From: Mesorhizobium sp. 1M-11 | GTDB lineage: Bacteria > Pseudomonadota > Alphaproteobacteria > Rhizobiales > Rhizobiaceae | Length of the DNA stretch: 64,000 nt | NCBI RefSeq assembly: GCF_001303895.1 | Contig: NZ_LJSD01000058.1 | Location: 1-64,000, forward strand | Direction: 5' to 3' | Shown here: piece after piece, positions 1 to 29,874 of the stretch | Layout of the letters: every line of letters starts with the position of its first letter | How positions within the stretch are numbered: position 1 is the first letter of the stretch | Notes under the pieces: generated by a model | What the model was told of the DNA's origin: nothing | Seen by the model: only the letters and a program-made list of their open reading frames with translations | Database searches by the model: none | Position numbers and translations under genes: made by a program

Positions 1-1
1 C

Positions 2-541
2 CAGCCGCCGCACGGCGGCGCCGGCTTCGACTATCCCGCCTGGCTGCGGGCGGTCTTCGACGTGCGCGCCGTCAAGGTGGTCACAGACTGGATCGGCCGC
101 GGCTCGGTCGGCGTCATCGTGGCCATGAAGGACGGCGAGACCGGACGGGAGCCGACCGCGGACGAGGTCGCGGAAATGCTCGCCTATCTCGGCGCGCCGG
201 GCTCATCGTCGGGCGTGCGTCCGGTGACCGCCAATGTGGTGGTGGTTGCGGCCGAGCCGGAAGAAGTCGCCATCTCCGTGCGGCTCCGGCCGGACAGCGT
301 TGCCATCCGGGCTGGCGTCACCGAGGCGTTCGCACGCTACATCGCGACGCTGGGAGACGCCGACGACGACCAGAACGACAGCCCGATCGGCGCCGTCATC
401 GAACCCTCGCGGATCTCCGAGGCGATCTCCGCAGCTTCGGGCGAATACGCGCATGACCTGACAGTGCCGGCGGCCCGCTACACGCTCGACACGAAGCAGT
501 ATCCGGTCGTTGGCGCCATCACCTTCCTGGCGCCGTTATGA
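2..541 (+). CDS. Phage baseplate assembly protein J (gp47-like), C-terminal part
   Basis: The reading frame is open from the window edge, so the start is missing; about 179 residues are seen. The sequence fits the C-terminal half of baseplate J/gp47 proteins: a conserved Trp-Leu-Arg segment followed by VKVVTDWIGRGSVGV, an 'RPVTANVVVV' strand and a Val-rich module ending in a TLDTKQYPVVGAITF-like tail. In contractile-tail phages this protein forms part of the baseplate wedge. It overlaps the next gene by ATGA at 538-541, indicating translational coupling. The family call is fairly firm; the specific phage type comes from the neighbours. Confidence 0.8.
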   Translation, partial: QPPHGGAGFDYPAWLRAVFDVRAVKVVTDWIGRGSVGVIVAMKDGETGREPTADEVAEMLAYLGAPGSSSGVRPVTANVVVVAAEPEEVAISVRLRPDSVAIRAGVTEAFARYIATLGDADDDQNDSPIGAVIEPSRISEAISAASGEYAHDLTVPAARYTLDTKQYPVVGAITFLAPL

Positions 542-1305
542 GGACGGCCCCCTCCATCCTGGCCAGCCTCGTGGCCAAGCTGCCTCCCGGCTGGGTGCTT
601 GCCCAGCGCCGCGGCGTCCTCGACGCGCTGCTGGAAGGCATCGCCGGCCGCCTCGGCGAGGCGGAAGCCGATGCCGAAATCCTCATGGACGAGGTCGACC
701 CGCGCCAGTCCGTGCGCCTGCTGCCGGATTTCGAGCGGGTGCTGGGACCGGACCCGTGCGGCCGCGATCTCGGGGAACGTACGCTCGAGCAGCGCCAGCG
801 CCAGGCGCATCAGCGCTGGACCGCGCGCGGCGGCCAGAGCATCCCTTACTTCATCGACCTGGCTGCGCGGCTGGGTGTCGAGATCCGGATCGAGGAATAC
901 TGGCCGAGCCAGGCCGGCGTGCTCGTCGCCGGCACGCCGTTGATCGCCGAGGGGGAGCAGTTCACTTGGGTGGTGGCCCTGACGCTGATCGACGAATGGT
1001 GGTTCCGGGCCGGCCAGAACGTCGCCGGCGATCCGCTCGGCGGTCTGACGCTCTCGGATATCGAGTGCGAGCTGCGGCGCCTGAAGCCCGCGCATACGCA
1101 GCTGGTCTTCTCCTATCGCGAGAGCCTCGAGGACGAAATCCCCGGCGCCTTCACCCTGCTCGGCGACGAGGACGGTTTCGCCTTCGACTTCACCGACGGC
1201 AGCTATGCCGGCCGAACGACCGTCGGCGCTGAAAGGTTGCTCGCCGAGGATATCGGCTTCGCCATCGACCTGACGGACGGCTCTTTCGCAATGAGGCCAT
1301 CATGA
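538..1305 (+). CDS. DUF2313 (YmfQ/gp48-like) phage tail protein
   Basis: This 255-residue protein has the DUF2313 hallmarks: an N-terminal LASLVAKLPPGWVL stretch, a 'LLPDFERVLG' motif near residues 60-70 and a conserved Arg/Gln-rich helix followed by GVEIRIEEYWP. In Mu-type phages the equivalent protein (gp48) joins the baseplate after gp47. It is longer than the roughly 200-residue family norm: after the core it carries a C-terminal extension with two copies of a FA(F/I)D(F/L)TDGS(Y/F)A motif starting at residues 214 and 241. The ATG overlaps the upstream stop, and its own stop overlaps the next ATG at 1302-1305. Confidence 0.8.
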   Translation: MRTAPSILASLVAKLPPGWVLAQRRGVLDALLEGIAGRLGEAEADAEILMDEVDPRQSVRLLPDFERVLGPDPCGRDLGERTLEQRQRQAHQRWTARGGQSIPYFIDLAARLGVEIRIEEYWPSQAGVLVAGTPLIAEGEQFTWVVALTLIDEWWFRAGQNVAGDPLGGLTLSDIECELRRLKPAHTQLVFSYRESLEDEIPGAFTLLGDEDGFAFDFTDGSYAGRTTVGAERLLAEDIGFAIDLTDGSFAMRPS

Positions 1306-2459
1306 CCCTGATCGTCGGTGACGCGGTCGACTACCTGTCGCTCGTCCGGCCGAGCGGCGCCGCCTGTTTCGATGCAGACGGCCTGTTGCAGATCGCGGCG
1401 CCGAACGTGCTGCGCTTCGATCATGACCCGGTGACGAAAGCGGTGCGGGGCGCGCTGCTTGAGGACACGGCGACCAACCTGTTCGACGCGAGTGACTGGA
1501 CGGATGCCGCGACGACCTACGGGACCGTCATGCCGGCCCAGGCGGCCGGTCCTGACGGAACCGACACGCTGGCCCTCATCACATCCACCGCTCTGAACGG
1601 CGGCGTGGCGAAGACGGTGAGTGTCCCGGCCGGCGACGGGCTGACACGTACCGCCTCGCTGCATTTTCGGAAGGGCACGGCCGACACCCACCGGCTCGAC
1701 ATCGGCTACTTCGGTGGCCCGGCCCCGTATCGATCGGCATCCACCTACTTCGATGGCGCGACCGGCGAGGTCTCGGGCGACGGTGGCGTCATCGACTGCG
1801 GCGGCGGCCTCTATCGTCTTTGGGTGGCGCTCGACAACGAGGTGGCCGACGAGCACAACGTCTGCCAGATCGTTTCCAACGTCATCGGAGCCAGCGGCAG
1901 CACCGCCTATACGGGCGATCTCCAGATCGAGCTCGGCTCCTATCCGACCAGCTGTGTGAAGACGACGGACGGCGCCGCGACCCGCGCCGCTGACGTGGCC
2001 AGCCTGTCGGTTGCGGGAATGTCGCTCGACAAGGGCTTCATCGCTTTCGAGGCGCTGGCGGCGCCCGGTTCGTCTGTTCTGATGATGGCGAACCTGGATG
2101 GCGGGTCGATCAACGAAAACGGCGCGTTCCGCTTCTCCGTCGATGGCGAGGGCGAGTATTTCTACACGGCGACGCCGGAGGGCACGGAGAAGTCGTTGAG
2201 GCGGCTGGGCGCCGGCCTCGATCTGACCGCGCCTGTCCGGGCAGCGTTCACATGGGACGGCGACACGATCTGGTCGACGGTGAACGGCCTGGAGCCGGTC
2301 AGCGACACGATCTCCACAGCGGCCGGCAGCTTCGACTTTGCCCGGCTTCTGCTCGGCCGAGGCTCGTGGGTCACCAATTCGGCCTGCTGGATGAAGCGCG
2401 TGCTGTTGCTGCCGCGTCGTGCCACCACTGACGAAATGAAGGCGGTCTTCGCATCATGA
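1302..2459 (+). CDS. Phage tail/head fibre-type protein, lectin-like
   Basis: This is a 385-residue protein starting at an ATGA overlap with the DUF2313 gene. The N-terminus contains 'GALLEDTATNLF', a motif seen in phage spike/fibre proteins that precedes a jelly-roll domain, and the rest is rich in Gly, Thr, Ser and beta-strand patterns typical of concanavalin-like carbohydrate-binding folds. There is no signal peptide or membrane segment. Its place after gp48 is where Mu-type phages encode host-recognition fibres, so a receptor-binding role is likely. The fold call rests on composition and motif, not on an alignment. Confidence 0.6.
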   Translation: MTLIVGDAVDYLSLVRPSGAACFDADGLLQIAAPNVLRFDHDPVTKAVRGALLEDTATNLFDASDWTDAATTYGTVMPAQAAGPDGTDTLALITSTALNGGVAKTVSVPAGDGLTRTASLHFRKGTADTHRLDIGYFGGPAPYRSASTYFDGATGEVSGDGGVIDCGGGLYRLWVALDNEVADEHNVCQIVSNVIGASGSTAYTGDLQIELGSYPTSCVKTTDGAATRAADVASLSVAGMSLDKGFIAFEALAAPGSSVLMMANLDGGSINENGAFRFSVDGEGEYFYTATPEGTEKSLRRLGAGLDLTAPVRAAFTWDGDTIWSTVNGLEPVSDTISTAAGSFDFARLLLGRGSWVTNSACWMKRVLLLPRRATTDEMKAVFAS

Positions 2460-2761
2460 TCACCCTTTATCTGCGCGCCGACACCGAGGCCGACATGATC
2501 GCGGCCCTGCCATGGGCGCGGGCGATCGCACCCGCCGGCGATGGCGTCTGGAACCGTTCGACCGAAAGCTACGCGCTCGACCTGGTCGGCGCCGTCGTGA
2601 CGGCGCCAGGCGTCTATGGCGAAGACCACGCGGTCATCACACAACCGACGCTCGACGATCGCTTTCACGCCAACCTGCGCTGCACGGCCGAGATCGCCGC
2701 CCAGGTGACGGCCAATATCATCATCGACGCGCCCGCCACGCCGGCTCGCGTCTGGTTCTAG
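2456..2761 (+). CDS. Small conserved phage protein of unknown function
   Basis: A 101-residue protein whose ATG overlaps the previous stop (2456-2459). I do not recognise the family. It has no membrane segment or signal peptide; the middle 'VGAVVTAPGVYGEDHAVI' is beta-like. Lying between two fibre-type genes in a tightly packed tail operon, it is probably a structural accessory or fibre-associated protein. The coupling to its neighbours is the best evidence that it is expressed. Confidence 0.55.
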   Translation: MITLYLRADTEADMIAALPWARAIAPAGDGVWNRSTESYALDLVGAVVTAPGVYGEDHAVITQPTLDDRFHANLRCTAEIAAQVTANIIIDAPATPARVWF

Positions 2762-2770
2762 GAGGACAGG

Positions 2771-4132
2771 ATGGATCGCGTAAACGGTCAGGACTATGTC
2801 GACATCGGCGGCGGGCGTCGCGGCTTCCGCAGCCAGAACAAGCTCGCCGGCGTCGCCGGCACGGAGGTGACGGACACCTTCCTCAACAACATCCAGGAGG
2901 AAATCCTCAAGGTCATCGAGGCGGCCGGCATCGTCCCTTCGGCGGCCGACATGACGCAGCTCTGGCAGGCCCTGAACCTGATGGTCCTTCCGGGCTTCGC
3001 CGGCAGGCTCGCATGGATGCCGGTGCTGTCGGTCACCACGACCGATCCGCCCGGCGGTGCGGCCATCGGGGACGCTTATATCGTTCCCGACGCAGCGGGC
3101 GGCGACTGGGCCGGCCAGGCGCAGAAGCTGGCCATCTGGGTCGGCGGTTCGTGGGCGCTCGTTGCTACGAAAGACGGCCATGGCGTCGGCCTGCCGGACG
3201 GCCGGCTGTTTGTGCGCATCGGCGGCATCTATGTCGAGTATCTGGCGACCGATGTGCGCGCCGGGCTGGTCAAGACGGCCACGACGCAGGAGGTGAAGGA
3301 TGCCACGGGCACCGGTGCGGTGCGCGCCCAGGACCTTGTGAGCTACATCCTGCGGCCGGATGAGGACGAGATCACGCTCTACATCCGGCCTGACGGCGAC
3401 GACATCAACGACGGCAGCGCCAACGACGCCGGCCATGCTTTCAAGACCATTGCGGCGGCAATCGATCGCATCCAGAACCGCTATGCCTTCGCCGGCCGCA
3501 AGGCGATCCTGAAGCTTGGCACTCCCGGGACCTACGATACGTGCATCATCCGCAGCGTTGCGGGCAGCCTTGAGATTGTCGGCGACAAGGACAACCGCGC
3601 CGACTATGTGCTGACCGGCGCTCGTGGCATGACCATATCGTCGGCGGCCGTCACCTTGTCCGGCCTGACGCTGACGTACGGCAACGGGGCGATCCAGCAC
3701 AATTTGCAGGTCGGAAATTCCGGCGTAGCCACCATCGACGGCGTCATCTTCAATTGTGCGGTATCGCAGTCGACCTGGTCGCATATCTTCTCGACGGACG
3801 GTGGCAGCGTCATTCTGCAGTCGGGGTTCTCGGCGACCATCGGCGGTGACGCCTACGCGGCTCTGTATGCCGCGACGGGCGGCACGATCGCCGCCTCGAC
3901 GGCAGCGGAAATGCTGATCACGCCCAACAATCCGACCTTTTCGGACGCGACTGTCGTTGCGCGCTCCGGAGGCGTGGTCGAGATTGCCGCTCTCACCTTC
4001 CATCCAGGCGGCGGTATTGGCCGGCGCTATCACGCCGCGTTGAACGGCGTCATCAACACCAATGGCGGCGGTGCGAACTTCATCCCCGGCAATTCGGCCG
4101 GGCTGACCGAGACGGGAGGCCAATATGCGTAG
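2771..4132 (+). CDS. Phage tail fibre/spike with DUF2793-like and beta-helix regions
   Basis: A 453-residue protein preceded by a strong AGGAGG site at 2761-2766. Residues about 75-150 match the DUF2793 pattern (GDAYIVPDAAGGDWAGQA, then AIWVGGSWALV). From about residue 200 it begins 'LYIRPDGDDINDGSANDA' and continues as a run of short Gly/Val/Ile repeats typical of right-handed parallel beta-helix or pectate-lyase-like spikes. These are usual in phage proteins that bind or cut surface polysaccharide, and an alphaproteobacterial capsule or LPS would be the substrate. No catalytic residues can be assigned. The stop overlaps the next gene by 8 bp. Confidence 0.65.
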   Translation: MDRVNGQDYVDIGGGRRGFRSQNKLAGVAGTEVTDTFLNNIQEEILKVIEAAGIVPSAADMTQLWQALNLMVLPGFAGRLAWMPVLSVTTTDPPGGAAIGDAYIVPDAAGGDWAGQAQKLAIWVGGSWALVATKDGHGVGLPDGRLFVRIGGIYVEYLATDVRAGLVKTATTQEVKDATGTGAVRAQDLVSYILRPDEDEITLYIRPDGDDINDGSANDAGHAFKTIAAAIDRIQNRYAFAGRKAILKLGTPGTYDTCIIRSVAGSLEIVGDKDNRADYVLTGARGMTISSAAVTLSGLTLTYGNGAIQHNLQVGNSGVATIDGVIFNCAVSQSTWSHIFSTDGGSVILQSGFSATIGGDAYAALYAATGGTIAASTAAEMLITPNNPTFSDATVVARSGGVVEIAALTFHPGGGIGRRYHAALNGVINTNGGGANFIPGNSAGLTETGGQYA

Positions 4133-4691
4133 CTACGATCCGCGAGACTGGTACTGGCTGGCCGATGACGGCCGGCTCTACGGCTCTGCCCGGCAGGCGC
4201 TCGTTGCCGACGCCGAGACGGACGGCGACTATGCGGCCTGGGTGGACGGCGACGGCCATGCGACGCGCTGGCCGGCCGACGATGCCGGCGAGCAGACTGA
4301 AGCCGCTCTGGCGGCCGTCCTGGCGCCCTACGGCCTGACGCTGTGGCCCATCCCGCTCAAGGTGCAGCTCACGGCCTATGCGGCGGACAAGCGCTGGCAG
4401 GTGGAAACAGGCGGCATCACGGTCGGCGGCGCGACGATCGACACCAGCCGCGAGAGCCAGGCCATGATCACCGGCGCCTATGCCTATTCGCAGGCCAACC
4501 CGACAGAGACGATCAGCTACAAGGCGGCGTCGGGCTGGGTGAGCATGGACGCCGCCACGCTGGCGGCGATCGCCACGGCCGTCGGCGCGCATGTGCAGGC
4601 GTGCTTTGCGGCGGAGGCGGCCATGGCCGCCGAGATCGAGGCCGGCACGATCACCACGACAGCGGAGATCGACGCGGCCGACTGGCCGTAG
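4125..4691 (+). CDS. DUF4376-like phage tail protein
   Basis: A 188-residue protein overlapping the fibre gene by 8 bp. The N-terminal third (WYWLADDGRLYGSARQALV) looks like a fibre-assembly adaptor, and the C-terminal two thirds contain 'VQLTAYAADKRWQVETGGI', characteristic of DUF4376, found at the end of tail-fibre operons in many proteobacterial phages. It may help fold or attach the preceding fibre. No enzyme motif is visible. Confidence 0.65.
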   Translation: MRSYDPRDWYWLADDGRLYGSARQALVADAETDGDYAAWVDGDGHATRWPADDAGEQTEAALAAVLAPYGLTLWPIPLKVQLTAYAADKRWQVETGGITVGGATIDTSRESQAMITGAYAYSQANPTETISYKAASGWVSMDAATLAAIATAVGAHVQACFAAEAAMAAEIEAGTITTTAEIDAADWP

Positions 4692-4703
4692 GAGCGCAGA
4701 CGC

Positions 4704-4719
4704 CCGGAGCAAGCTCCGG
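4704..4719 (+). terminator. Short hairpin after the tail operon
   Basis: A 7-bp perfect stem (CCGGAGC/GCTCCGG) with a 2-nt loop lies 13 bp after the DUF4376 stop, but there is no following T-run. It could end or attenuate the late tail transcript before the methyltransferase gene. Confidence 0.3.
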
Positions 4720-4830
4720 ATGGCGGGCCTAGATTGGCGTCCTGTCCCGCCAGACAGCCCCAACGGATAACTGTCGCGCCTGCGGCCCTTTCGGGCAGGC
4801 AGACCGTGACTGATCCTCCAAGGCCTTTAA

Positions 4831-5631
4831 ATGCCCCTTCAACCGTCATTCACAGCCGTAGATCCGATCCGCCCGCCGGCGGGATACATCGGCGGCAAGC
4901 GCCGCCTGGCGGCGCAACTGGTCGTCGCCATCGAGGCGACGCCGCACCGGACCTATGCAGAGGCTTTCGTCGGCATGGGCGGTGTGTTCTTCCGGCGCCG
5001 GCAGCGGCCGCCGGCCGAGGTCATCAACGACCGCAACGGCGATGTGGCGAACCTCTTCCGGATCCTGCAGCGCCACTATCCGCAGTTCCTCGACACGCTG
5101 CGGTTCCAGCTCACCGGCCGGCGCGAGTTCGAGCGGCTGAAGAAGAGCGATCCAACGACCCTGACCGATCTGGAGCGGGCCGGCCGCTTCCTCTACCTCC
5201 AGCGGACGGCCTTCGGCGGCAAGGTCGCCGGCCAGAACTTCGGTGTCGATCCGGCGAGCGCAGCCGGTTTCAATCTGACCAGGCTGGAGCCGCTACTCGC
5301 AGATATCCATGAACGCCTCGCCGGCGTCGTCGTCGAGAACCTCGACTGGCTGGCCTTCATCGACCGCTACGACCGGCCGGAGACGCTGTTCTACCTCGAT
5401 CCGCCGTACTACGGTTCGGAGGGTGACTACGGCCGCGAGCTGTTCGACCGGGCGCAGTTCGCCGTCATGGCCGAGCGCCTGCACCGGATGAAAGGTCGGT
5501 TTATCCTGTCCATCAACGACGTGCCGGAGATCCGGGAGACGTTCGCAGGCTTCGACATGCAGCCGGTAGATCTGCTCTACACCGTCTCCGGTCCGCCCCG
5601 GCCGGCAAAGGAGCTGATCATTCATGGGTGA
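4831..5631 (+). CDS. D12-class (Dam-like) DNA N6-adenine methyltransferase
   Basis: A 266-residue protein with the alpha-group N6-adenine methyltransferase layout: 'PPAGYIGGKRRLA' near residues 15-27, the SAM-binding AFVGMGGVF at 45-53, and the catalytic DPPY at 190-193 followed by YGSEGDYG. The family usually methylates adenine within GATC or a related short site. It sits at the right end of the prophage, the position at which Mu carries its mom modification gene, so protection of phage DNA from host restriction is a reasonable guess. No restriction endonuclease partner is seen. The upstream ribosome site is weak. Confidence 0.85.
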   Translation: MPLQPSFTAVDPIRPPAGYIGGKRRLAAQLVVAIEATPHRTYAEAFVGMGGVFFRRRQRPPAEVINDRNGDVANLFRILQRHYPQFLDTLRFQLTGRREFERLKKSDPTTLTDLERAGRFLYLQRTAFGGKVAGQNFGVDPASAAGFNLTRLEPLLADIHERLAGVVVENLDWLAFIDRYDRPETLFYLDPPYYGSEGDYGRELFDRAQFAVMAERLHRMKGRFILSINDVPEIRETFAGFDMQPVDLLYTVSGPPRPAKELIIHG

Positions 5632-5722
5632 GGCGGCGTCGTTGATGTTGGGATACCTGCCGCTAGTCGTGTTTTGCGGCCTGGTCATCTGGCTCGCGCT
5701 CGCTCGGTTCAAGCGGCGTTAG
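5624..5722 (+). CDS. Tiny membrane protein at the prophage right end
   Basis: A 32-residue reading frame starts with ATG 8 bp before the end of the methyltransferase gene and ends at TAG 5720-5722. The product is one hydrophobic helix (about residues 8-26, with 'YLPLVVFCGLVIWLALA') followed by a basic tail (RFKRR), the pattern of a small single-pass membrane protein with the C-terminus inside. Overlap with the upstream gene and the good membrane pattern argue that it is real. A lysis, superinfection or regulatory role is possible but cannot be decided. Confidence 0.5.
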   Translation: MGEAASLMLGYLPLVVFCGLVIWLALARFKRR

Positions 5723-6105
5723 AGTGACCCTAAAAGAGGCTTTGAAGCTTGGCCGAGTGCTCTAAAACCGCGCGTCAAAAACTCAAAACCGCGCGACCGG
5801 CTACAACGCGCTTTCATCGGCTTGCCGGTGCGTTTGTAGGTACCGGTGTAGGTGCCGATACCGAGGATGGTCGACCCGCCGTCGACCAGCCTTTCCAACG
5901 TAAAGGTATAGCCCTCCCACTCGTCGCCGATGCGCTTGAACACGCCTTCAATGATGGCGACAGTGCCGACATAGGTGCCGGCATAGGGAAAGCCGGCCAT
6001 CTCGGTCCAGGCCGTGCGGTCGGTGATCGGCGCCATCATCGCCGCCAGGTCCTTGTTGTCGGAGCCGGCGTAATGCGCCTTGATCGCTTCGTAGTTCTTG
6101 CTCAT
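5719..6105 (-). pseudogene. SnoaL/NTF2-like protein gene, 3' end replaced by phage insertion
   Basis: From ATG at 6105 the protein begins MSKNYEAIKAHYAGSD and continues with 'WTEMAGFPYAGTYVG', 'VFKRIGDEWEGYTF' and 'GIGTYTGTYKRTGKPM', all typical of SnoaL-like/NTF2-like proteins of about 125-135 residues. After 'MKAR' (codon ending at 5806) the next 28 residues are Arg/Ser/Gly/Leu-rich and unlike the family, which should continue with a beta-strand and a C-terminal helix. The change coincides with the proposed phage terminus. A TTG at 6123 would add six residues overlapping moaF but ATG is preferred. The gene is the third in a leftward SDR-MoaF-SnoaL operon. Confidence 0.7.
5764..5795. repeat. 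Two direct repeats, likely transposase-binding sites at the phage right end
   Basis: The 11-mer AAAACCGCGCG occurs at 5764-5774 and again at 5785-5795, exactly 21 bp apart and in the same orientation, 10 bp inside the proposed terminus at 5805. Mu ends carry tandem 22-bp MuA-binding sites in this arrangement. A weaker CTAAAA-containing copy may lie near 5730. The repeats are seen directly; the transposase link is inference. Confidence 0.55.
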
Positions 6106-6119
6106 GGTTTTGCCCGCGC

Positions 6120-6914
6120 TCAAACCGGCGCCGGTCCCTTTCCGTAGTCGGTTGTCGATTTCTTGGTGATGAATGCGCCAGCTGGCTTGTTTTCGATGGC
6201 GCCGGTCGAGATCACGCCGAGGAACTTGCCCGTCGAGCGCATGTCATCCCAATTGTAGAAGAACAGAGATGCCACCGGGATGATGAATTCGCGGAAACCG
6301 AAGACATACTGGCCGTCAGCAAACTTCCAGGTCGTGGCAAGGTCGACATCGCCATGGCCACGCTGCACGCCGACAAGGTTCTGCCAGGCATAACGCTGCG
6401 ACGACAGGTAGATATGCTCGTAGACGTGGTTGGGACTGTATTCGTAGTGCGCGGTGAGCCCGACGAGGTCGCGCGACGGAGCAGGTTCGATACCGCCTGG
6501 CGCAACTGAAGGATCGCCGAGCACGCCCGCCAGCCATGTCTGCGCGACACGCGGCTCACCCGGCGCTTCACCGGCTTCCCTCACCCGTTCGCGCACCGAA
6601 AGGACACGCCGTGTGCGAGTGTTGACGATCAAGGCTTCATCTTCGGTCGGACGTGCGGCGAACGTCATATTGATGAAGACGGTGTCGGCGGCGACTTCCA
6701 GCGCCTCATACCAATCGACGCCGGCATCCTTGCCCTCGCCCCACGCGACGGTATCCGCCGACGTGAAAGCCAGATCAATCTGGCGTCCGCCGTTCAGCGT
6801 GATCTTGAAGGTCTGGCCAGCCAGGGCCTTGGTCGTCGGCAGCCGGTTGGTGGCAATCCCGGCGGCGAAGTCATCGAAATGCTTCCAGTCGGCCGGTCTG
6901 TTCACGTCATTCAT
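6120..6914 (-). CDS. MoaF-family protein
   Basis: A 264-residue cytosolic protein with the two-part MoaF layout: an N-terminal lipocalin-like half (residues about 20-110, 'TFKITLNGGRQIDLAFTS') and a C-terminal half from about residue 150 with 'HVYEHIYLSSQRYAWQNL'. MoaF proteins were named from molybdopterin-linked amine operons but occur widely in aromatic and amine catabolic clusters; their activity is not settled. The ATG has a GAGGACC ribosome site 7 nt upstream. It lies 18 bp after the SDR gene and 14 bp before the SnoaL gene on the same strand, so the three are probably co-transcribed. Confidence 0.75.
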   Translation of the reverse strand: MNDVNRPADWKHFDDFAAGIATNRLPTTKALAGQTFKITLNGGRQIDLAFTSADTVAWGEGKDAGVDWYEALEVAADTVFINMTFAARPTEDEALIVNTRTRRVLSVRERVREAGEAPGEPRVAQTWLAGVLGDPSVAPGGIEPAPSRDLVGLTAHYEYSPNHVYEHIYLSSQRYAWQNLVGVQRGHGDVDLATTWKFADGQYVFGFREFIIPVASLFFYNWDDMRSTGKFLGVISTGAIENKPAGAFITKKSTTDYGKGPAPV

Positions 6915-24700: not shown

Positions 24701-27349
24701 GCCGAAGGCTATGTCGTGCACAAGTGCCGAGAAATGACCGCGCGGAGTGGCATCGCTGTTCTTCGGGATGATCGCGTTGACGATGTCGAAGGTGGGCGCC
24801 ATGAACAACGTCAGGATAAGCAGGCCTTGCCATTGGGCGGCTTGGGTGAAGGGCAGCAAGGTCCAACCGGCTATCGCAGCCATCACCCAGAAGATCGGGG
24901 TAATTGAGCGACGCAGATTGTCGATCATCTTCCAGCGGGACAGTGCCGGGACGCCCGAGCGCGGATCGAAGATGAAGCTCAGGAGCTGCCAATCGCCGCG
25001 AGCCCAGCGATGGTTGCGCGAAGCGTCAACCCAGTATCGCGTCGGATAATCCTCGACCAGTTCGACGTCGGTGACGAGTGCCGAACGCGCCAGGGCACCC
25101 TCGAGCAAATCGTGGCTGAGGACGGTGTTGTCTTCTATGCGCCCCTTGAGCGAGGCTTCGAAGGCGTCGATATGGTAAAGGCCCTTGCCCGTGAAGGAAC
25201 CGTCGCCGAACACGTCCTGATAGAGATCAGAGACGGCAAAGACGTAAGGATCGAGGCCGCGATTGGCAGAGAATACGCGCTGGAAGAATGACGCCTCATC
25301 GCCGGTGGTGAGCGAAGGCGTGATGCGCGGCTGCATGATCGCGTAGCCGGCGGTAACCCGGCGCTTCTCCGCATCGTAATGCGGCTTGTTCATCGGGTGG
25401 CACATCTTGCCGATCAGCTTCGATACGGCATCGCGCGTCGTGCGGGTGTCCGCGTCAAGCGTCATGACATGCACGACGTTGTCGGGCAGCGGCGTTTCCA
25501 ACGGCAGGAAGGTGGTGTCCTTGTCGCCGCGCAGCAGCAGGTTCAGTTCATGCAGCTTGCCGCGCTTGCGCTCCCAGCCCATCCAGCGCCCCTGCGCCGG
25601 ATTGTAGAGACGGCGGCGGTGCAGGAGGTAGAAGCGAGGTGCGCCTTCGTTCGGGTAACGCTGGTTGAGTTCCGCGATCTGATCGCGGGCAAATTCCAGG
25701 ATTTCCGTATCGTTGGCGCTGATTTCCGATTTGCTGTCCGGCCAATCCGAGAGCAACGCGAAATGAAGCTCACCCGACATATTGGCGAGATGGTGCACTT
25801 CGATGTTGCGGACATTTTCCTCGACATCGTCGCGCGAGCCAATCAGCGACGGCACAACGACAAGGGTCCGTGCCTCAGCCGGGATTCCGTCCTTGTACTC
25901 ATAGCCGACAAGGCGCGTGGGTTTCAGGAACAACAGGATGACGGTGTTGAAAAAGGCCAGAGCGCCTTCGCTCGCAGGCACCGCGAACAGCACCAGCATC
26001 AACGTTATGCCCCAGAGCGGCAGCCCCAGTGCGGCCAGCGCATTGCCGGACAACCAAAGCAGAAGCGCGGTGAGCAGAAAGACGGGCAACACGATGCCAA
26101 GCCAACCGGTCCTGCGGAAACCACGCAGAAGACGGCGCGCCAGGCTTGGCGAATAACCGATCGCTTTTTCGAGTTCGGGACGGCGTGAACCGACAAGGAA
26201 GAAGCCGATATCGGTGGCATCGGCAGCATCCGTCGCTTCGCCCGTCGCCTGTCTCGCCGCATCCGCCATATCGGTCGCTTGCTCGGCGACATGGTATTCG
26301 GACTGCTTCGAACGTTTGGCCAGATCCTCGATCTCGGTGCGATACTGATCCCTGGATGGAAAATCGAGCTCGCTGAAATTGGTGCGTTCGCGCAGCAGCG
26401 CATCGATGCGGCTGACGCCCTCGAACCAGATCGTCCAGTCGACGTCGTTGATGAGGCGTAAACCGCGAATGATGTTGCCGGTGGTCACGTTGCCGCTCGA
26501 CAAAGTCTGATGCTCGGCAATGGTGATCTTTTCGGCGTCAGTGCCGGACTTCTCCAGCTCGGTTTCCAGCCACTCGAGCGCCCTGCCCGCATTTTGCGAA
26601 CCGTCGCGCAAGCGATAGAGGAGCTGCGTGGCAAATGAGGTGTCGGCAGCCTGGGCCTGATATTTGTCCAGGATTGCCTGCCGATCGGCACTGTCGCCGG
26701 CCGCCAGGACCCGGTCGGCCACGTCGTTGGCGATGAGGCGCATATCCCTCGACCGGTTGACCCGAACGGCAAGCCGGCGAAGGTTCTCGATAAGCACGAA
26801 GCGCAGCAGCGACGGCAGCGCCCAGATTTCGCCGATCTTCATGGGTTCGACCGACTGGAAACCCTCGACGATCGCCTTGAACATCTGAGCCGAGACGGAG
26901 CTGTCCGAATGCGCGACGTAAGCCCAGGCCAATGCCAGAGCGCGCGGCACGCTGGTGCCGTCGGAGAGTTTCAGCGTGGGCAGTTGTCTGTAAAAACGGC
27001 GCGGCAGATCGCGCTTGATCTGGTAGATCGTTTCTTCGACCAGATAATTATTGTCGAGCAGCCATTGAGCGGCTGGCGTCACCGTCTCGCCCCGGGCCTG
27101 GGCGACATTGGTCAGCTTGTAGACCTCAAGGATCTTCTTGGCACTTTCGCGGATGCGCTTCTGGAAATCGAAAGGCTGCAGCCCGGCAAGATCGGAGATG
27201 TCGCCTCTGGCGAGGCTTTCACCCAGCGCCCGCAACCTGTCTTCAGGCAGAAACTGTGACCGGATAGGCTCTTCCGCTGTCTCAGGGAACCGCGCAGTGG
27301 CGGTCCGGATCTCGGCGGGGCTGGTTTGAATATTCATCAAGCAATCCAT
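18773..27349 (-). CDS. ndvB: Cyclic beta-1,2-glucan synthase
   Basis: A giant 2858-residue inner-membrane protein with the domain plan of NdvB/ChvB/Cgs. Membrane helices occur near residues 405-475 and 820-1000. Between them is the GT84 domain with the sugar-nucleotide DAD motif in 'MTLDADTRT' (about 625) and 'HRWARGDWQL' (about 780). The C-terminal 1000 residues carry a GH94 phosphorylase-like domain, including 'GFRDQLQDTLAL' and the GGDWNDGMNRV catalytic region near residue 2540, which controls ring size. It makes, elongates and cyclises the glucan from UDP-glucose. The start may also be Met5 (27337). No frameshift is seen over 8.5 kb. Confidence 0.95.
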   Translation of the reverse strand: MDCLMNIQTSPAEIRTATARFPETAEEPIRSQFLPEDRLRALGESLARGDISDLAGLQPFDFQKRIRESAKKILEVYKLTNVAQARGETVTPAAQWLLDNNYLVEETIYQIKRDLPRRFYRQLPTLKLSDGTSVPRALALAWAYVAHSDSSVSAQMFKAIVEGFQSVEPMKIGEIWALPSLLRFVLIENLRRLAVRVNRSRDMRLIANDVADRVLAAGDSADRQAILDKYQAQAADTSFATQLLYRLRDGSQNAGRALEWLETELEKSGTDAEKITIAEHQTLSSGNVTTGNIIRGLRLINDVDWTIWFEGVSRIDALLRERTNFSELDFPSRDQYRTEIEDLAKRSKQSEYHVAEQATDMADAARQATGEATDAADATDIGFFLVGSRRPELEKAIGYSPSLARRLLRGFRRTGWLGIVLPVFLLTALLLWLSGNALAALGLPLWGITLMLVLFAVPASEGALAFFNTVILLFLKPTRLVGYEYKDGIPAEARTLVVVPSLIGSRDDVEENVRNIEVHHLANMSGELHFALLSDWPDSKSEISANDTEILEFARDQIAELNQRYPNEGAPRFYLLHRRRLYNPAQGRWMGWERKRGKLHELNLLLRGDKDTTFLPLETPLPDNVVHVMTLDADTRTTRDAVSKLIGKMCHPMNKPHYDAEKRRVTAGYAIMQPRITPSLTTGDEASFFQRVFSANRGLDPYVFAVSDLYQDVFGDGSFTGKGLYHIDAFEASLKGRIEDNTVLSHDLLEGALARSALVTDVELVEDYPTRYWVDASRNHRWARGDWQLLSFIFDPRSGVPALSRWKMIDNLRRSITPIFWVMAAIAGWTLLPFTQAAQWQGLLILTLFMAPTFDIVNAIIPKNSDATPRGHFSALVHDIAFGTAMVALKIVLMAHQAWMMGDAIIRTLYRLFVSRKDLLEWRTASQAHQGSGNDIGSYYSMMYGAVIIGAVGLAIPVLDDSTGAFVAFAFAVFWIGSPAFAWLVSRSAETEDRLHLLPQDVHALRIAARRTWHYFENFVTAEQNHLPPDNFQENPKPIIATRTSPTNIGVYLLSVVSARDFGWISLSEAIARIDATMSTVERMERSRGHLYNWYETTTLNPLRPTYISAVDSGNLAGHLVTVAATCTEWAEAPSVHLHGDVEGVLDTVAILNESLDELPDDRRQLRPLRQRLADRLDGMRRAVRTIKAQPEMASARTVNLTVLAGEIRKLAAAIHAEAKSTASDIIVDWAARLEATCEAHVQDAQADEKTVQAMRAKLLELHERTRRYAFEMEFGFLLRQDRKLLSIGYRVEERQLDEACYDLLASECRLTSLFAIAKGDLPTEHWFRLGRPIVEIGFRGALMSWSGSMFEYLMPPLVMKEPQGSILNQTSQLIIKRQIQYGRSKSVPWGISEAAYNARDREMNYQYTNFGVPGLGLKRGLGQNTVIAPYATILSAQFLPREAVANLKRLKEIGALGRHGYYDAVDFTPQRVPEGATCAVVQNYFAHHSGMSIAAIADAVFEGRLRDRFHSDPVIESAELLLQEKAPREIPADTVRTDAEEQAVADETEAQTPDMRVVLDPAWALRATNLMSNGRYSVMVTATGSGYSRWGDFAVTRWQPDPVEDRLGSYIFLRDADTGDWWSATVEPKRAPGETAQAQFSDDKATFIKTVHSLRSEVECIVISEGNGEGRRVTLYNDGATDRHIEVTSFAELVLGQEAADYAHPAFSKMFVETEIAPNNNAIFATRRKRDEGDPDITAAHFVTDPSGLARDGEAETDRRAFIGRGRTIADAAAFDPDARLEGHAGFTLDPIAALRRRVRVPANKKISLTFWTVTGANRTELEEAIARLDHAESFARQSMLAWTRSQVQTRHMGLSLTDASNVQKLARYLIYPDPFLRLQPDAVASGLGRQSSLWPTSISGDFPIFAVRIGDVADLEIVAEALRFQEYMRARGMTADLVIVNEQASSYVQDLQQAIDALCENSRLRGNEFGSRQHIFAVRRDLMDETTYKTLLAVARVVLHTRNGTIFDQIERAETAAIQARDALHPGGAAVSRDTTAPAPRKPAKKGEGGIPADGTGLDYWNGYGGFDSDGRHYVVRLTGSRSTPQPWINVVSNEVFGFHTSAEGAGFTWSRNSRDYQLTPWSNDPVTNRPGEGIYIHDLGSGEAYSPTAAVLRDPAMVYEAWHGQGFSTFRSRRGAVSMDLTHVVDPVDPVRISRLRIQNAGLAPVRLRVYAYAEWVLGSHRSKTAATILSQRDEATGALLAQNPYGLDFSDRVAFLASDREPQSFTADRQEFLGRDGNTATPQSVLAGSALSGRVEAGDDPCAALARDVEIPAGGDVTLLWLMGDAGSAKEASALVKTHRAKDFDERLAENERNWRGFLDTIQVETPDKALNAMVNHWLPYQALACRIRARSAFYQASGAFGFRDQLQDTLALLAHDPALAREQILNAAQRQFPEGDVQHWWLPRSGAGVRTMISDDVVWLAHAVSRYVLVTGDKAILKEALPFIEGKPLAEGEHDSFFEPQISKTNVPLYEHCARALDLAIQRTGADGLPLILGGDWNDGMNRVGIGGKGESVWLGWFLLKTLTDFAPVAKTQSDTKRAKAWEAHAASLKRALENAAWDGEWYRRGSFDDGSPLGSRRSDECKIDSIAQSWSVLSGDGDPARSQTAMDQAVKHLVDDELKIVKLFTPPFSRTEKDPGYIKSYPPGVRENGGQYTHAATWFVIALAEMGRTDEAYRCFSMLNPVNHALDNAAAEHYRVEPYVVAADIYAGEGKGGRGGWTWYTGSAGWLYRAAVEGILGIERRGNRIEITPKLPRDWDGYSAKLKIAGTEHSVRVVRAKATKTISLEVDGAKVKGNAFDLKEGGSSEIIVKIPA

Positions 27350-27569
27350 GCGGTGGGGACCGGTCGCGGCGCAACCGCCTCGTCCCCGGTGTTTAATATC
27401 GATTTACAGGTGATTGATTGCATAGCAAAGCGGGTCGGACGAGCTTGTTCTGTCTTCCCGTCAAGATTAGCGGCCGTGGCGTTGCCGACAACTGTGATAC
27501 TTGCACTCATGCTCACAACGGAAAGGAGCGAATGGCAAGGATTCCGGCAATTTCGTGATGGCGCAACCG

Positions 27570-27590
27570 CCCGGCCCGATATTTCGGGTC
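27570..27590 (-). terminator. Weak hairpin after hutD
   Basis: CCCGA and TCGGG form a short stem around TATT about 30 bp downstream of the hutD stop on the minus strand. There is no strong T-run. It may mark the end of the hut transcript before the ndvB promoter region. Confidence 0.25.
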
Positions 27591-27617
27591 AGGTTCGATA
27601 ACGCTTGGAAACAACCT

Positions 27618-28193
27618 TTAATCGTTTTGGATGGCGATCAGGAAAACGACCGCGTGCGGCTGCGGCCGGAGCCGGAACGTCTGTCCCGCCTCGTCGAGCC
27701 ACAACGTATCACGAGCATTAAGCGCAACTGTCGGCGATTCGCCGATCTGAATGCCGCCCTCATGGCAGAACACAAGCGTAGCGGTCGCTTCGGCGATGAA
27801 ATCAAGTGGCTCGGAGAGCGATACGCGGCGCACGGTATGGCGCGCGCGGGCACGGCGGGTCATCACATTGAGATCGGTGATGGGCCCCGCCGCCAAAGTT
27901 GCCTCGGTCTCGGCGTCCGCGGGAAAGAACAAGGGCTCACTGGCCCGTGTCAGGTCTACAGAATCATAACCAGCGATAGAGAGCCGCATGCCTTCGCCTT
28001 CAAGGATCGAAAGCGTGCGGTCGATGCCAGCGAAGACGGAAAATGGCCCTCCAGCCTCGACCCGCGCCATCGAGATGCGCCAGTCGAAGTCATCCAGCCC
28101 AGCGCCCGCCGGCGAGACAACGATCTCGGTCGTCGTCCCGCCACCGTTCTTCCACGGCATGGAGCGATAGTCGCTGGCGCGAAGGATGCGCAT
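27618..28193 (-). CDS. hutD: HutD family protein
   Basis: A 191-residue bicupin starting MRILRASDYRSMPWKNGGG, the family hallmark, followed by 'TTTEIVVSPAGAGLDDFDWR' and 'DLNVMTRRARARHTV'. HutD occurs in hut operons; in Pseudomonas it is proposed to bind formylglutamate and set an upper limit on hut activity. ATG 28193 lies 4 bp after the hutU stop, so it is the last gene of the leftward hutIHGUD operon. Longer frames overlapping hutU were not accepted. Confidence 0.9.
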   Translation of the reverse strand: MRILRASDYRSMPWKNGGGTTTEIVVSPAGAGLDDFDWRISMARVEAGGPFSVFAGIDRTLSILEGEGMRLSIAGYDSVDLTRASEPLFFPADAETEATLAAGPITDLNVMTRRARARHTVRRVSLSEPLDFIAEATATLVFCHEGGIQIGESPTVALNARDTLWLDEAGQTFRLRPQPHAVVFLIAIQND

Positions 28194-28197
28194 CGGC

Positions 28198-29874
28198 TTA
28201 GCCGAGAATGCCCGGCAGGTTGAGCTGATGCTCCTTTGCGCAGTCGATGGCGATGTCGTAGCCGGCGTCGGCATGACGCATGACGCCAGTTGCCGGGTCG
28301 TTCCACAACACACGCTCGAGACGGCGCGCTGCATCCTCGGTACCGTCGCAGACGATGACCATTCCGGAATGCTGCGAGAAGCCCATGCCGACGCCGCCGC
28401 CATGGTGCAGCGACACCCAGGTCGCACCCGAGGCCGTGTTGAGCAGCGCGTTGAGCAGCGGCCAGTCGGACACAGCGTCCGACCCATCCTTCATCGCTTC
28501 CGTTTCGCGGTTTGGCGAAGCGACCGAACCGGAATCGAGATGGTCGCGACCGATGACGACGGGCGCCTTCAGTTCTCCCCTGGCAACCATTTCGTTGAAC
28601 GCCAGGCCGAGGCGGTGGCGATCGCCGAGGCCGACCCAGCAGATGCGTGCCGGCAATCCCTGGAACTTGATGCGCTTCTGCGCCATGTCGAGCCAATTGT
28701 GCAGGTGCTTGTTGTCAGGCAGCAACTCCTTCACTTTGGCATCGGTCTTGTAGATGTCTTCCGGGTCGCCCGAAAGTGCCGCCCAACGGAACGGACCGAT
28801 GCCGCGGCAGAACAGCGGGCGGATATAGGCCGGGACGAAGCCGGGGAAATCGAAGGCGTTCTCGACACCCTCTTCCAGTGCCATCTGGCGAATGTTGTTG
28901 CCGTAGTCGACGGTCGGGATGCCCATCTTGTGGAAGTCGAGCATCGCCTTGACGTGAACTGCCATCGACTTCTTCGCTTCCTTGGCGACGGTCTTGGGAT
29001 CGCGCTCGCGCTTCTCTTCCCATTCTGCAACCGTCCAGCCCTGCGGCAGGTAACCGTTGACCGGGTCGTGGGCAGAAGTCTGGTCGGTGACCGCGTCCGG
29101 CTTCACGCCACGGCGAACCAGTTCCGGGAAGATGTCGGCAGCATTGCCAAGCAACGCAACCGATATTGCCTTCTTTTCCTTGCCGGCCTTGTCAAGAATG
29201 GCCAGCGCATCGTCGAGATCCTTGGCCTGCACGTCGACATAGCCGGTCTTCAGGCGCATTTCGATGCGCGAAGCCTGGCATTCGACAGCAAGGCAGGATG
29301 CTCCCGCCATCGTCGCGGCCAGGGGTTGAGCACCACCCATGCCGCCCAGGCCAGCGGTCAGGATCCATCTGCCGGAGAGATCGCCATTGTAATGCTGCCG
29401 GCCCAACTCGACAAAGGTCTCGTAGGTACCCTGAACGATGCCCTGCGAGCCGATATAGATCCAGGAGCCGGCCGTCATCTGGCCGTACATCATGAGGCCC
29501 TTTTTATCGAGGGCGTTGAAATGATCCCAGGTTGCCCAATGCGGCACAAGGTTGGAGTTGGCGAGCAGGACGCGCGGCGCATCCTTGTGCGTCTTGAAGA
29601 CGCCGACCGGCTTGCCCGACTGCACCAGCAACGTTTCGTCGGCTTCCAGATTGCGCAGCGCACCGACGATACGGTCGAAGCTCTGCCAGTCGCGCGCGGC
29701 ACGGCCGATGCCACCATAGACCACCAGCTCACCCGGCTTTTCGGCGACGATCGGGTCGAGATTGTTCATCAGCATGCGCAGTGGCGCTTCGGTGAGCCAG
29801 CTCTTGGCGGTCAGCTCGGTGCCGGTGGCGGCGCGGATGGTGCGGGAATTGTCGATACGGGTGTGTTGGGTCAT
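28198..29874 (-). CDS. hutU: Urocanate hydratase
   Basis: A 558-residue urocanase, full length for the family. The NAD-binding '[19 protein letters not shown]' is near residue 180, and the conserved Cys of '[18 protein letters not shown]' lies near residue 360-365 in the active site. It converts urocanate to imidazolonepropionate, the second step of histidine breakdown, in the cytoplasm. It follows hutG by 19 bp and precedes hutD by 4 bp, all leftward. Confidence 0.97.

Follow-up and report, generated by a model that had tools for sequence, protein, structure and literature searches.

Escherichia phage Mu has three transposase sites at each of its ends and a repressor of the c type, and its mom gene occupies the place that a D12-class DNA methyltransferase gene has in the prophage described here. 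The two elements have in common the MuA and MuB families, TG..CA ends, a 5-bp target duplication, Mu-type late genes and repeated end sites. The transposase of the present prophage is 35% identical to that of Mu over 75% of the query, its repressor is of the S24 type instead, and two sites per end are seen in place of Mu's three. Closer matches were found when the MuA protein was compared with 50,697 phage records: 127 contained a match, and the best were Ochrobactrum phage POA1180 (KX669658; 51.6%) and the Sinorhizobium phages Aussie (OR786373) and StopSmel (OR786374), all at 51-52% identity. The Aussie and StopSmel records list transposase A, transposase B, Mor and a DNA methyltransferase near the right end, and their ends start with TGT. 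Their head-tail annotation comprises a head-to-tail stopper, a tail terminator and a major tail protein, and names no sheath or baseplate gene. POA1180 resembles the present prophage in having a methylase before the right end together with sheath and baseplate genes; its ends read TGTAGCGTGACGCGCGG (right) and TGTAGTTTGACAC (left), and its record starts at the terminase and holds extra DNA between the ends. DNA similar to our methyltransferase gene is present in all three phages. The title of the announcement of Aussie and StopSmel, as cited in PMC12429752, uses the term "Mu-like", and neither "Mu-like" nor "transposable" occurs in the main text of the POA1180 paper (PMC5492332). Our literature search found no paper on Mu-like transposable prophages of Mesorhizobium or MuA prophages of Rhizobium, which does not exclude print elsewhere; judged by title and start of abstract, it found none on Mu-like transposable phages of Sinorhizobium that had a rhizobial phage as its subject, and nothing on Abaiavirus. 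The prophage belongs to a lineage already known from rhizobial phages and is ordinary in kind.

The window, by which we mean the whole stretch of 64,000 bases that was analysed, corresponds to positions 1-64000 of contig C7 in a 6.69-Mb draft assembly of 77 contigs (G000). An initial annotation had placed the right terminus of a Mu-like prophage at position 5805. We compared the window with the uninterrupted locus (L016) of genome G005, which was the closest (94% identical) of the genomes matched by the truncated SnoaL protein. The blastn alignment starts at window position 5806, equivalent to L016 8827, and proceeds at 88.5% identity over 5,209 bases. The predicted boundary therefore stands, with one amendment: SnoaL homology had been said to end at 5806, whereas it is the homology to the host locus that starts there. 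The other host flank, C2:162446-167264, aligns to L016 4014-8831 and ends at C2:167264. On the empty site the two flanks overlap by exactly 5 bases, L016 8827-8831, which read ACGCG and are carried by both junctions. The left copy, at C2:167260-167264, supplies the partner for the copy that the initial annotation had proposed as a target duplicate. That annotation had also expected the left end upstream of the window; because contig C7 begins at window base 1, it was sought on another contig, and it was found on C2 with the anticipated TG start, similar repeat and ACGCG flank. As read from these alignments, the prophage is fixed to the base at both ends in a split draft assembly.

The insertion explains a disrupted host gene. 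It replaces the last residues of a SnoaL-like protein by 28 residues encoded in phage DNA. A search of 61 genomes, including this one, with the SnoaL protein gave matches in nine, and in all eight of the others the match ended at query residue 107, where the phage-encoded residues begin; a SnoaL protein that naturally ends in the 28 residues, which would have spoken against an insertion, was thus not seen among them. When the host flanks are joined and only one ACGCG is kept, the SnoaL gene is again in frame throughout, with C-terminal residues as in G005. Since its last residues have been exchanged for phage-encoded ones, the gene is probably dead in this strain.

The features of the right arm and its junction are collected in Table 1. 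Their content agrees with the Mu-like right arm that had been predicted: the C-terminal part of gp47, gp48, tail and fibre proteins, and a D12 methyltransferase that is the last large gene before the right end. The N-terminal part of gp47 (PF04865 positions 2-114) closes contig C59. Read inward on the minus strand from 5805, the terminus starts TGTAGCCGGTCGCGCGG, which bears out the 5'-TG start noted earlier. A short open reading frame with a hydrophobic stretch lies beyond the methyltransferase gene; it was seen in none of the three plus-strand frames across the corresponding 216 bases in the related prophage G165a and is probably not a conserved gene.

Table 1. Features of the prophage right arm and host junction (window coordinates)
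Feature	Position	Strand	Evidence or remark
gp47 / baseplate J-like protein, C-terminal part	2..541	+	PF04865 positions 128-254
Mu gp48-like baseplate protein	538..1305	+	PF10076 2e-28, phrog_203
Tail protein	1302..2459	+	phrog_5939
Small protein, phage family phrog_18574	2456..2761	+	
Tail fibre protein	2771..4132	+	PF10983, phrog_1858
DUF4376 tail-fibre protein	4125..4691	+	PF14301, phrog_10508
D12-class adenine-N6 DNA methyltransferase	4831..5631	+	PF02086 1.9e-20, phrog_56 4.5e-75
32-residue ORF with hydrophobic stretch	5624..5722	+	
Prophage right terminal 150 bases	5656..5805	-	5'-TGTAGC at 5805
Host SnoaL-like gene cut by insertion	5719..6123	-	106 native residues (6123 down to 5806) + 28 phage-encoded residues
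R2, presumed MuA-binding site, 21 bp from R1	5761..5778	-	contains 11-mer at 5764-5774
R1, presumed MuA-binding site	5782..5799	-	contains 11-mer at 5785-5795
Target-site duplicate ACGCG, right copy	5806..5810	.	L016 8827-8831 common to both flanks

At the left end, C2:167265 is the first phage base and the sequence reads TGTAGTTTGACAC, so that TGTAG is found at both termini (TGTAG...CTACA). Moving inward on C2, an S24-type repressor gene on the minus strand comes first, followed by a LexA-type DNA-binding protein and then by MuA, MuB, the late activator, endolysin, terminase subunits and Mu portal. Further head genes, sheath, tube and tape measure lie on C49, the baseplate genes and the start of gp47 on C59, and the end of gp47, gp48, fibres and methyltransferase on C7. 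The Mu-type late genes thus include late activator, terminase, portal, protease, head, sheath, tube and baseplate. MuA (C2:171597-173732) and the MuB open frame directly after it (C2:173518-174819) overlap, their start codons being provisional; both had been predicted to lie near the left end. MuA matches PF02914 (2.9e-47, DDE_2), PF09039 (7.1e-27, HTH_Tnp_Mu_2) and PF09299 (4.2e-15, Mu-transpos_C), with PF02316 found only below the cut-off. Against the Mu transposase chain 4fcy, residues 141-640 could be aligned (500 residues, E 2.4e-93), and the blocks holding the Asp, Asp and Glu that we take, from Mu, to be catalytic are conserved in this alignment. MuB carries its C-terminal family PF09077 (2.6e-21) together with AAA_22. 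Apart from MuA, the one PF09299 gene reported for this genome lies on C11, in a TniA/TniB/TniQ-type transposon (L013, G000:C11, 2539-5824).

In the translation of the S24-type repressor an Ala-Gly pair precedes the Ser and Lys motifs, these being the motifs that we assume to matter, and no solved structure matched it at E 0.001. Because an S24-type repressor with a possible Ala-Gly cleavage site is present, its sequence suggests that the prophage may be induced on DNA damage. The repressor type is not new, since 239 phage records contain similar repressors (<60% identity); one of these is Pseudomonas phage H70, a transposable phage of the D3112 type. An early-region stretch of ~3.3 kb at G000:C2:176092-179434 corresponds to ~1.2 kb in the related prophage; one of its products carries a Trans_reg_C DNA-binding domain, and the stretch is possibly cargo.

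Phage DNA amounts to 20,139, 11,236, 3,441 and 5,805 bases on C2, C49, C59 and C7, respectively. These contigs are collinear, in that order, along one prophage (G165a) in G165, a genome of the same genus, from whose alignment we took both the contig order and the size of the gaps, estimated at ~1.5 kb in total. A tail stretch between C49 and C59, of an inferred ~1.4 kb, was not found in the small contigs searched. The G165a prophage is like the present one in its portal (78% identical), in the near-identical start of its left end and in the final 49 bases of its right end, which are 92% identical and end at the same base; it has its own 5-bp duplication, CCCGA, on both sides. It differs in being 37,332 bp long and ~2 kb shorter in each of two unaligned stretches, in the early region and the fibre region. 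A 19.3-kb IMG/VR contig (L137, IMGVR_UViG_2571042911_000004) encodes a MuA that is 100% identical and is probably the same prophage cut short.

We then asked how often such ends could be paired in relatives. A match to the portal is present in 11 of 146 genomes of the genus, this one included. Pairing in six further regions of relatives gave both ends in one, G165a, with a score of 40 (a region that also served as a reference and whose best chance pair scored 22). In G110, G165b, G096, G159 and G010, a search for TGTNG...CNACA ends with equal 5-mers returned low-scoring pairs only (best 19-21 of 40), none convincing. Left ends were sought, with at most two mismatches, in 46 of 54 MuA-carrying loci, eight short loci being excluded; hits were obtained in 17, two of which (L119 and L142, identical in sequence) are not end-like. 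Right ends were sought near methyltransferase genes in 14 of 18 genomes found via MuA. Ten of the 14 had a methyltransferase match, and pairing was attempted in five of these ten, a set that did not include L123, which has a left-end hit and a weak methyltransferase match. Three gave paired ends: Tianweitania sediminis (CCGGC), Rhizobiales bacterium AFS011520 (TAAAG) and Rhizobium sp. C1 (CGAAG); in L121 and L122, no ACA terminus within the locus surrounding the methyltransferase had an equal 5-mer next to it. Of the 11 other regions, four thus yielded paired ends, and in every one of these the 5-bp duplication was perfect and had a sequence of its own; counting this one, the five prophages have five different 5-mers (ACGCG, CCCGA, CCGGC, TAAAG and CGAAG). 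For two of the four (L172 and L177), a second chance match of ACA plus 5-mer lies further out and is unlike a terminus, and the pair was picked by likeness to other termini. In the Hyphomicrobiales MAG MCMED-G12 (L133), a single MuA gene has two left-end-like sequences upstream of it, at 3870 and 6279 (2.4 kb apart), a picture that would fit one insertion near or inside the end of another.

The initial annotation had leaned on two identical 11-mers within 42 bp of the terminus. The 11-mer AAAACCGCGCG is indeed present at 5764 and 5785, 21 bp from start to start and both inside the last 42 bases, but its weight had been over-read. The repeat alone is modest evidence for a phage end, because the 64-kb window holds three close exact 11-mer repeats, counting this pair, and because at the other right ends that we compared the two copies resemble each other without being identical. 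The exact identity is partly luck, and what is conserved is a family of sites. The 11-mers form the cores of two putative MuA-binding sites. From the R1 and R2 sites of five right ends we made a matrix, with which eight left ends and eight right ends were scanned. An R1-type site lies at 7-24 from the end in six of eight right ends (five of these six also built the matrix), an R2-type site at 28-45 in five of eight (the same five that built it), and a position-7 site in six of eight left ends, none of which had entered the training. For background, 30,939 interior bases gave 10 hits above 8 bits on both strands. At the left end of the present prophage, this right-end-only matrix found sites at position 7 (16.7 bits) and 124 (23.9 bits), the second of which has 17 bases identical with R2. 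G165a likewise has a second left site of the same orientation, at 112, as do L120 (at 242) and L131 (at 171) with weaker scores; the matrix gave none in L128 or POA1180. Since the second left site varies or is absent in other prophages, the matrix may miss sites. POA1180 has one site per end above threshold, R1 being present and R2 not, and the right ends of Aussie and StopSmel keep TGTAGC, but in these phages neither L1 nor R1/R2 rises above threshold. We tentatively raise the possibility, itself rather doubtful, that rhizobial Mu-like phages have an end code of their own, in which the left terminus (TGTWGTTTGACAC...) is conserved, the right terminus carries two transposase sites spaced by 21 bp, and each end has two sites. 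If true, such a code would imply a four-site transpososome, simpler than that of Mu.

Positions 1-5805 of the window almost certainly represent the right arm of a Mu-like transposable prophage, complete or nearly so, of ~42 kb. The prophage is spread over four contigs and would have been put into the host gene by a MuA-type DDE transposase. From the sites described above we infer that MuA would bind L1 and L2 on the left and, spaced by 21 bp, R1 and R2 on the right. It would then pair the ends, cut at the TG/CA termini and join them to target DNA at positions 5 bp apart, with MuB assisting in the choice of target. A site-specific temperate phage with a tyrosine or serine integrase might share the Mu tail genes, with the 5-bp repeat serving as a short attachment core. 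Mu-type tail genes do occur outside transposable phages, and relatives of gp48 include the records of SfV and SfI, which we take to use an integrase. However, MuA and MuB are encoded close to the left end, no two of the five prophages with paired ends share a duplicated 5-mer, and PHROGs scans of 48 phage ORFs and alternative frames on the four contigs (some short ORFs and the ~1.5 kb of gaps falling outside the scan) returned no integrase family. ARAGORN found no tRNA in the window, and on both counts the initial annotation was right. We rejected an integrase-type prophage as extremely improbable, given MuA, MuB and the five different 5-mers.

It is no more credible that the terminal repeat arose by chance and that the boundary reflects a join made in assembly. 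Exact 11-mer repeats at such short distance are not very rare in the window, yet the last 49 bases are 92% identical to the terminus of an independent prophage and stop at the same base, and the same terminus is found at other loci with other flanks; this recurrence led us to reject a chance repeat. A decayed remnant, that is, an inserted Mu-like phage no longer able to transpose, deserves somewhat more weight but is still unlikely. The assembly is broken at three places within the prophage, and the missing tail stretch would fit decay. Against this, the ends and the duplication are perfect, the reading frames of MuA, MuB, terminase and head genes are open, and no stop interrupts that of the portal up to the contig end. 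The end sequences of the prophage offer probes for such prophages in fragmented rhizobial genomes.

The same ends bear on a published claim. Position 27283 is the last base of the right end in the record of POA1180; after it come 753 bases, an inverted right-end copy from 28037 (83 bases, 98.8% identity) and the left end at 28445. Fragments of chrA and chrB are contained in 27284-28444, between the two inverted right-end copies and next to the left end. A 721-base query from between the right ends matched 235 records of a plasmid collection, with a query coverage of at least 80% in 15 and an identity of 80% in the best; the annotated top matches are chrB-chrA loci. ORF31 and ORF32, published as possible phage chromate resistance (PMC5492332), fall in this stretch between the ends, and ORF31 starts at most 4 bases from the right end. 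Head-to-head neighbouring insertions would account for the arrangement as well, but on the simplest reading the chromate genes appear to be host sequence that flanked a transposable phage at its right end and was joined to it in assembly. This host-DNA reading suggests that the claim of phage-borne chromate resistance would rest on host sequence beside a Mu-like end.
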